Source: Phenylobacterium sp. (GTDB taxonomy: Bacteria > Pseudomonadota > Alphaproteobacteria > Caulobacterales > Caulobacteraceae). From it: DNA of 64,000 bases. Location: NCBI RefSeq assembly GCF_013911965.1, contig NZ_JACESE010000006.1, positions 143,933-207,932 of the forward strand, written 5' to 3'. The first letter of the stretch is position 1; every line of letters starts with the position of its first letter. Under the pieces are notes generated by a model. The model made no database searches. It was not told the origin of the DNA and saw nothing but the letters and a program-made list of their open reading frames with translations. Below are positions 15,492 through 17,171 of this stretch, piece after piece. Both the position numbers and the translations under genes were made by a program.

Positions 15492-15494
15492 TTG

Positions 15495-15654
15495 CCCGTT
15501 CGGGAAACTCTCCGCCTTCTGATGTGCGGAATGATTCGAATGCACCGATCGGTAAAGTTTGACCGTTAGAAGGGCTAGACACTTCTAAATGTCCCGATCG
15601 GATAATTTAGCTTGACTTAGCTCACTTGGAAATGCAAATTTCCCGATCGGGAAA
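15495..15654 (+). promoter_or_regulatory. Four phased operator palindromes of hipBA
   Basis: Four palindromes share the core CG-WT-CG flanked by C/G: CCCGTTCGGG (centre 15499.5), ACCGATCGGT (15548.5), TCCCGATCGGAT (15597.5) and TTTCCCGATCGGGAAA (15646.5). The centre distances are 49, 49 and 49 bp. The last ends 3 bp before the hipB ATG. They are probably HipB binding sites for autorepression. Confidence 0.8.
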
Positions 15655-15657
15655 GCC

Positions 15658-15891
15658 ATGACCGCGCCTCTCTCAGATATCGGCCAAGCCGTACGCACCG
15701 CCCGCAGGGGCATGGGCCTGACGCAGCCTGAACTCGCGGCCGCGGCCGGGGTCGGCCTGCGCTTCCTCGTGGAGCTCGAGCGCGGCAAGCCGACTGTGCG
15801 GCTTGACCGGATGCTGGCTGTCCTCGACGCGCTCGGCCTCGAGCTGCAGATCGCGCCGCGCGGCCGCAGTCCTTCCGGCGCTGCCCAATGA
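15658..15891 (+). CDS. hipB: HipB-like antitoxin, XRE-family repressor
   Basis: A 77-residue DNA-binding protein made almost wholly of one HTH_3 domain (residues 8-66, TQPELAAAAGVGLRFLVELERG). HipB antitoxins bind and restrain HipA and repress their own operon. The ATG directly follows the fourth palindrome, so bound HipB would also cover the ribosome site. It overlaps hipA by 4 bp (ATGA). Confidence 0.88.
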   Translation: MTAPLSDIGQAVRTARRGMGLTQPELAAAAGVGLRFLVELERGKPTVRLDRMLAVLDALGLELQIAPRGRSPSGAAQ

Positions 15892-17171
15892 TCAGGTCTC
15901 TGACCGTCTGGTGGGACGGCGCCCGCGTCGGTCTGCTCCGCATCGACGAGAACGGCGACCTGGAGTTCGTCTACGACGGGGCATGGCTGGAGGACGGGAC
16001 GAAGCCTGCCATCTCTATCTCGCTGCCGAAGCGTCCCGGAGCCTTCAGCCGGCGGGAGACGCGGCCCTTCTTCGCGGGCCTCCTGCCCGAGGAGACGCAG
16101 CGGGACGCCGTGGCCCATGCGCTCGGCGTTTCGAGGGCCAATGACTTCCGCCTGCTTGAACGGCTCGGGGGAGACGTCGCCGGCGCGCTCACCCTCTGGC
16201 CCGAGGGGGACCTCCCCCCTGAGCCGCAGGGCGTCGCCGCTACCGAGCCGCTCACCGACGAGACCTTGCTGGAGGTCCTCGCCAGACTTCCGGCGCGGCC
16301 GATGCTTGCCGGGGAGGAAGGCCTGCGCCTCTCCCTCGCCGGCGCCCAGCAGAAGCTCCCAATTGTGCTCGTCAACGGCCGGGTGGCGCTGCCGGCGCCC
16401 GGCCAGCCGAGCACCCACATCCTTAAGCCGGCCATCGAGCGCCTGCCGGGCACGACCGAGAACGAGGCCCTGGCCATGCGCCTCGCCGCCGCCCTAGGCC
16501 TTCGGGTGGCGCCGGTGGAGCCCCGTCGCACCGGCGAGCGGACCTATCTGCTGGTCGAGCGCTACGACCGCGACGTCGGCACCGACGGCTCCATCCGCCG
16601 CCTGCACCAGGAAGACTTTTGCCAAGCCCTGGGCGTCGCCCCGGAGCGGAAGTACGCCTCCGAGGGCGGTCCGATCTTCCGGGACTGCTTCGATCTCCTC
16701 CGCCGCGCCTGCGCCGCGCCCGCGCCTGCGGTGCTGCGCCTCGTCGATGCCGCCATCTTCAACGTGCTCGTCGGCAATGCGGACGCGCACGGTAAGAACT
16801 ACAGCCTCCTCTATTTGGACAGAGGCATCGACTTCGCGCCGCTCTACGACCTGCTCTGCACCGCGGCCTATCCCGACGTGCACGCCAAGCTCGCCATGAA
16901 GGTGGGCAAGCGCTCGACCCTTGAGGAGTTCACGCCCGATACCTGGGACGATTTCGCAAAAGAGATCGGCGTCGGCGCGCCGTTCGTGCGGCGGCGTGCG
17001 GGCGCGATCGCCGGTCTGGCCCTGGAGCGGATTGGTGCGGTCGGGGAGGAGATCGCCGCCATCGGCTTTGGAGGCGAACACCTCGAACGCGCCTCGGTGC
17101 TGATCACCGAGCGGGCTAAGACCCTGGTCGCGCTCGCAGAGGGCCGGCATCTCCCCACCCGCAGGCGCTAG
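15888..17171 (+). CDS. hipA: HipA-like Ser/Thr kinase toxin
   Basis: HipA kinases phosphorylate translation factors (aminoacyl-tRNA synthetases in studied cases) and cause growth arrest. The 427 residues hold the N-terminal couple domain (about 5-110), a kinase N-lobe with SLAGAQQKLPIVL and the Ile/Leu-Lys ATP site in THILKP, and a C-lobe with catalytic VGNADAHGKN near 295-305 and the metal-binding DFAPLYD. All key residues are present, so it looks active. Full-length fused form, with a separate HipB. Confidence 0.9.
   Translation: MIRSLTVWWDGARVGLLRIDENGDLEFVYDGAWLEDGTKPAISISLPKRPGAFSRRETRPFFAGLLPEETQRDAVAHALGVSRANDFRLLERLGGDVAGALTLWPEGDLPPEPQGVAATEPLTDETLLEVLARLPARPMLAGEEGLRLSLAGAQQKLPIVLVNGRVALPAPGQPSTHILKPAIERLPGTTENEALAMRLAAALGLRVAPVEPRRTGERTYLLVERYDRDVGTDGSIRRLHQEDFCQALGVAPERKYASEGGPIFRDCFDLLRRACAAPAPAVLRLVDAAIFNVLVGNADAHGKNYSLLYLDRGIDFAPLYDLLCTAAYPDVHAKLAMKVGKRSTLEEFTPDTWDDFAKEIGVGAPFVRRRAGAIAGLALERIGAVGEEIAAIGFGGEHLERASVLITERAKTLVALAEGRHLPTRRR

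Follow-up and report, generated by a model that had tools for sequence, protein, structure and literature searches.

What holds four operator palindromes at exactly equal distances in front of a toxin-antitoxin operon? The question is raised by a hipBA operon of Phenylobacterium sp., which lies in a stretch of 64,000 nucleotides (contig NZ_JACESE010000006.1, positions 143,933 to 207,932 of the forward strand; hereafter "the window"). Upstream of the operon, four palindromes with a spacing of 49/49/49 base pairs (bp) were read from the sequence. We found that a step of 49-50 bp is conserved to within about 1 bp in a family of related loci from several phyla. With a probability of roughly 70%, the window carries an autoregulatory hipBA operator array of the Y4mF type, i.e. 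a rigid HipA-HipB nucleoprotein array in which HipA bridges neighbouring operators.

Four putative operators upstream of hipBA

The distal operator 4 (TTGCCCGTTCGGGAAA) occupies positions 15492..15507, followed by operator 3 (TGCACCGATCGGTAAA, 15541..15556), operator 2 (TGTCCCGATCGGATAA, 15590..15605), and the proximal operator 1 (TTTCCCGATCGGGAAA, 15639..15654); none is assigned to a strand. Operator 1 is a perfect 16-bp palindrome, and a gap of 3 bp separates its end from the ATG of hipB (15658). The centres at 15499.5, 15548.5, 15597.5, and 15646.5 confirm the exact 49-bp period that had been described in a first-pass annotation of this DNA. The consensus given there, C-CGATCG-G, proved to be loose: the strict form CNCGATCGNG fits operator 1 alone among the four sites, and the part that stands is the shared core CCGWTCGG. 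The location of the palindromes 5′ of hipB makes them putative HipB operators. The array falls into the 49-50 bp operator class, defined here by two or more CCGNNCGG palindromes that precede hipB at distances of 48-51 bp, and it lies outside the E. coli type (TATCC-N8-GGATA at 28/39/28 bp).

The operon itself has the typical organisation of hipBA. The first gene, hipB (15658..15891, + strand), encodes by sequence an antitoxin and repressor of 77 amino acids (aa) with an XRE/Cro-like helix-turn-helix. Its profile scores are above the cut-off for PF01381 and 81.4 bits for TIGR03070, the NCBI model of the Y4mF antitoxin family (cut-off 71.65). It overlaps by 4 bp with hipA (15888..17171, + strand), which encodes a predicted serine/threonine kinase toxin of 427 aa with the N-terminal domain and the catalytic residues of HipA.

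Within the window, pairs of the CCGWTCGG core at a distance of 49 bp (up to one mismatch) are confined to the array, with six strand-matches at three places; shuffled sequences gave a mean of 0.05 and a maximum of 2. The core alone is mildly over-represented in the 64 kilobases (kb), with 23 strand-matches versus 15.5 expected, and the evidence thus lies in clustering and spacing, because the core by itself is not rare. A pair pattern of unrestricted spacing yielded 31 strand-matches in the whole genome, and its reversed control yielded three; the chaining of successive pairs into four sites is unique to the window array. A chance origin of the array is excluded.

Spacing among relatives and across HipA loci

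Relatives were taken from three sources, i.e. 30 loci from 100 relatives' genomes, the best 80 of 570 loci from genome_contigs, picked by likeness to the window family, and 21 viral contigs. The motif scan covered 122 loci for which 300 bp or more of upstream DNA was available, of which 117 remained after identical 300-bp upstream regions had been dropped. The window family comprises the 90 non-identical loci with a HipA at least 45% identical, and it still includes close relatives. The number of sites per locus, which varies with the motif threshold, is three in 57 loci; two sites were found in 17, four in six, five in one, one in six, and none in three loci.

In this family, 143 of the 153 adjacent spacings are 48-51 bp (48 bp: 3; 49 bp: 84; 50 bp: 52; 51 bp: 4). 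The other ten are 17, 30, 33, 64, 65, 97, 99, 99, 148, and 265 bp, and the values of 97, 99, 99, and 148 bp correspond to about two or three steps. No adjacent spacing that is one helical turn longer or shorter was found in the 90 loci. The range of 48-51 bp holds for 75 of the 81 proximal intervals as well as for 62 of the 64 next ones. Three consecutive sites at this distance are present in 62 of the 90 loci, and an interval of 48-51 bp was found in 84 by the motif or the motif-free method (see below). The six remaining loci have either less than 400 bp of upstream DNA (L084, L110), double steps (L053, L096), or a single site (L074, L091).

The first-pass annotation had taken the regularity as a sign of a higher-order HipBA-DNA assembly rather than of independent sites, and had named beforehand an outcome that would contradict this, i.e. 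homologous loci that conserve the sites and not the spacing. This outcome did not occur among the relatives; the sites are not independent, and a higher-order assembly is the best reading. The further proposal that the first and fourth sites, 147 bp or 14 turns apart, face the same side cannot be general, because most arrays have three sites and many intervals are 50 bp long. In a separate tally of 77 arrays, 58 had three sites and four, including the window, had four, so that the fourth, distal site is a minority feature. A search for hidden further sites 49-50 bp upstream of the 77 arrays found none, except in five arrays that the strict motif had scored as two-site. Two loci of Gemmatimonadota (L073 and L076) have an extra palindrome on the hipB side, which is 64-65 bp away from the closest site of the array and outside the 49-51 bp register.

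With the motif scan, the interval was detected in 64 of 73 named loci and in eight of the nine phyla represented: Pseudomonadota (43/49), Acidobacteriota (6/6), Gemmatimonadota (5/5), Myxococcota (4/5), Verrucomicrobiota (3/4), Chloroflexota, Kiritimatiellota, and Lentisphaerota (1/1 each); the ninth is Omnitrophota (0/1). Phyla with a single bin are weak evidence because most records are metagenome bins. The spacing is retained at HipB identities down to about 40-60%. The linkers of the 84 intervals of 49 bp have a mean identity of 32% between loci, compared with 77% for the first sites of the same intervals, and linkers within one locus are 34% identical (62 pairs). The conservation of the spacing is independent of the linker sequence. 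Among the other 27 loci, in which HipA is below the cut or undetected, 18 have no site by the family motif, and the seven adjacent spacings are one of 49 bp and six of 50 bp.

A protein-blind search of 385 genomes of the class was based on three CCCGNNCGGG with gaps left free from 24 to 54, a strict pattern that does not catch the window array. Matches were found in nine genomes. Among the matches listed, three are non-repeat arrays, with spacings of 49/50 (G861), 49/49/49 (G841), and 50/50 bp (G899), and each of them precedes hipB and hipA (HipB 44-51% and HipA 40-52% identical). As judged by eye, one further genome has a 56-bp tandem repeat, and five (G704, G724, G742, G798, and G799) have CRISPR-like arrays whose unit is 61 bp long and whose GC-rich repeats contain CCCGCGCGGG or CCCGCACGGG.

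A finder of repeated palindrome pairs that uses no motif was run on 288 of 293 assembled HipA loci, copies being retained; for 174 of the 293, the source was a Pfam search of 150 or of 321 genomes, with the matches fetched in part, from among those listed. A significant operator pair was found in 174 of the 288 loci; the controls were hipA coding stretches, with one of 170 significant, and stretches more distant upstream, with four of 156. By this method, the window family has 176 spacings, and 164 of them lie within 48-51 bp. Outside the family (90 loci, including a copy of the window with its three 49-bp intervals), 162 of 188 spacings fall into four classes, i.e. 26-28 bp (74), 30-31 bp (10), 39-41 bp (17), and 48-51 bp (61). 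Removal of the window copy and of locus L148 leaves 149 of 175. Neighbouring intervals differ by no more than 1 bp in 147 of 177 cases overall and in 68 of 93 outside the family, and resampling from the pooled spacings gave a mean of 76.5 and a maximum of 102 of 177. The exceptions to equal intervals include layouts of the type a/b/a, namely 28/39/28 (E. coli), 41/59/41, 41/91/41, 31/35/31, and 31/43/31. Symmetric paired layouts of this kind were seen at L031, L290, L179, L254, and L027.

To relate spacing to descent, the classes were placed on a quick FastTree of 161 HipA proteins, in which 45 rows are partial and long branches were flagged. The class changes seven times on this tree, the minimum possible being three and the mean after shuffling 50.2. 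The spacing class follows HipA phylogeny. It is the tree that carries this link. A clustering of HipA N-termini, tried as a count of independent lineages, failed to resolve the classes, since loci with 27 and with 49-50 bp occur together in a single-linkage cluster of 179 loci. Of the 32 N-terminus clusters, 16 had a usable spacing, with modes of 26, 30, 31, 40, 41, 49, 50, and 72 bp.

Two further loci extend the range of layouts. L148 (G156:C32) has 11 palindromic operators 5′ of hipA at an exact period of 27 bp (ten intervals), the longest array among the scanned loci. The second hipBA of the Phenylobacterium genome itself (L164, G000:C4:116600-117838) has TATG-N10-CATA sites 54 bp apart, and its kin L017, L020, and L021 have four sites at 27/27/27; judging from these sites, the genome seems to hold both spacing classes.

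Tentatively, and at somewhat less than even odds, hipBA promoters may be scaffolds, and the spacing a clade-specific ruler for toxin-toxin contact with one favoured step per HipA lineage (about 27, 30-31, 40, or 49-50 bp). If so, the spacing of the DNA would predict the geometry of HipA-HipA contacts, and long arrays with up to 11 operators, such as L148, may serve to store toxin and not just to repress.

Readings of the fixed spacing

The conserved spacing together with the changed linkers suggests that toxin and antitoxin form one ordered complex of fixed geometry. In this complex, one HipB dimer would occupy each palindrome, each dimer would be able to carry two HipA molecules, and the HipA molecules of adjacent operators would touch in a single geometry that holds the step at 49-50 bp. 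Such contacts would turn the promoter region into a rigid nucleoprotein array, in which the operon is repressed cooperatively and HipA is kept in store, masked. It is the conservation of the spacing that points to this HipA-HipA contact between neighbouring operator complexes. HipA is favoured over HipB as the bridge because about 33 bp between 16-bp sites look too far for dimers of a 77-aa HipB. Rigidity is suggested because changes of spacing in the family amount to about 1 bp rather than a helical turn, and the lack of one-turn variants indicates a fixed-length contact, i.e. a constraint on length as well as on phase. The first-pass annotation had considered that the assembly is perhaps wrapped or looped; if helical face were the only determinant, one-turn changes would be tolerated, which is at odds with this result.

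Several observations weigh against this reading. The motif-free scan found no significant operator pair in 114 of the 288 HipA loci, and regular arrays are therefore not established for every hipBA. Locus L013 has a HipB relative and two sites 50 bp apart, and a search of about 1.5 kb recognised no hipA. L012 is a hipB remnant with matches in two frames that keeps 49 bp, again with hipA undetected; both may be relics, yet they have the spacing without HipA. At the positions equivalent to P86 and D88 of E. coli HipA, which we take to be high-persister positions, the 49-bp class has mostly D (68/94) and A (67/94), compared with P in 10/19 and D in 11/19 of the 27-bp class; the G22-equivalent position has G in 87/94 and 13/19, respectively. 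The contact, if real, would differ in detail from the E. coli interface, because the 49-bp class does not share P86 and D88. This residue pattern fits a different contact surface, and it may be a clade signal only. Alternatively, bent DNA may bring the repressors into contact, or a third protein may be involved. In addition, the authors of a study on Legionella raise a possible intermediate occupancy, unlike the cooperativity in E. coli (PMC10653801).

If HipB dimers cooperated alone, or HipB-bent DNA were wrapped according to helical phase, HipA would be a passenger. The spacing kept at L012 and L013 speaks for this explanation. With 10.5 bp to the turn, the two most frequent spacings (27-28 and 49-50 bp) come to about n + 0.6-0.8 turn, although 31 and 41 bp are near whole turns. 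We nevertheless regard it as unlikely: phase alone would permit the one-turn changes that adjacent spacings in the family do not show, a period of 10.5 bp does not stand out in the phase clustering of all intervals (0.776 at 10.5 and 0.818 at 11.0), and neighbouring HipB dimers would have to reach across the linkers. A single helical-phase rule (n + about 0.7 turn) joining the 28/39 bp of E. coli, the 49-50 bp of the family, and the 71 bp of Legionella looked attractive and is not put forward, since at 10.5 bp per turn the phases lie between 0.57 (27 bp) and 0.95 (31 bp), clustering is stronger at 11.0, and the independent lineages are few.

The promoter could also dictate the spacing, with operator 1 over the -10 region and operator 2 just upstream of the -35 element. 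Between operators 2 and 1 of the window, a putative -35 element, TTGACT (15612..15617, + strand), is followed after a 17-bp spacer by a putative weak -10 element, CAAATT (15635..15640, + strand), which abuts operator 1 and agrees with TATAAT at three of six bases; a consensus promoter scan of the array region in the window found no promoter. In the proximal intervals of the 62 three-site arrays, TTGA[CT] occurs 25 times, 15 of them at -34/-35 from the centre of operator 1, and strict TTGAC occurs 14 times (10 at -34/-35). The TTGACT of the window occupies this family-typical position, which makes it probable that operators 2 and 1 flank the core promoter; a fully occupied array would then occlude RNA polymerase. 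The second interval is equally tight, although its ten occurrences of TTGA[CT] are scattered apart from three at -35, and its four strict TTGAC all differ in position. Moreover, in other hipBA clades, genes of this kind are preceded by sites about 27 or 40 bp apart. Control of the spacing by the promoter appears slightly less probable still than cooperation of HipB alone. Recent tandem duplication of a 49-bp unit, with the regularity as a relic of copying, would explain the exactly equal spacing in the window; it is close to refuted, because linkers within a locus are hardly more alike than linkers between loci, far below the identity of the sites, and because the spacing outlasts the divergence of HipB.

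Comparison with known systems

The array of HipA-bridged operators that we favour is, by analogy, best read as a variant of the HipA-HipB assembly of E. coli. The hipBA operon of E. coli K-12 (PDB 4yg7 and others) has four operators with the motif TATCC-N8-GGATA, in contrast to the CCGWTCGG-cored sites of the window, at 28/39/28 instead of 49/49/49 bp, and its HipA differs from the 49-bp class at P86 and D88. Four HipB operators, cooperative binding, and a 70-degree bend have been described (PMC3376134), as has the dimerisation of HipA inside operator complexes (PMC7029023). A rough rod model with 70-degree bends places adjacent centres about 167 Å apart at 49 bp, which is no test in itself.

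In Caulobacter crescentus, hipBA1 and hipBA2 have three operator sites each (PMC8545095), and their intervals have been remarked on relative to the E. coli higher-order complex (PMC7029023); the likeness to the window, compared by site number, lies in the multiple operators. Legionella HipBST has three evenly spaced operators that are bound by HipB in gel shifts (PMC10653801). It differs from the window in its gaps of 53 bp between 18-nucleotide sites (arithmetically about 71 bp from centre to centre), in its motif, and in a toxin that is split into two genes.

Multiple HipB operators are thus already known from E. coli, Caulobacter, and Legionella. As far as the literature searched shows, two findings are new, the conservation of the 49-50 bp step to about 1 bp in several phyla and the existence of discrete spacing classes that go with HipA lineage: the publications covered on HipB and antitoxin operators, spacing, and Y4mF contained neither, which is no proof of absence. 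The silencing of HipA on its own promoter bears on the formation of persister cells, and one such assembly is known, in E. coli. A spacing that is fixed within a multi-phylum lineage and changes in discrete steps between lineages makes it testable which HipA surfaces meet. The nearest named system is Y4mE/Y4mF of rhizobial plasmids: the window HipB passes the Y4mF model, and several rhizobial relatives encoded on plasmids share about 57-63% identity with the HipA of the window.
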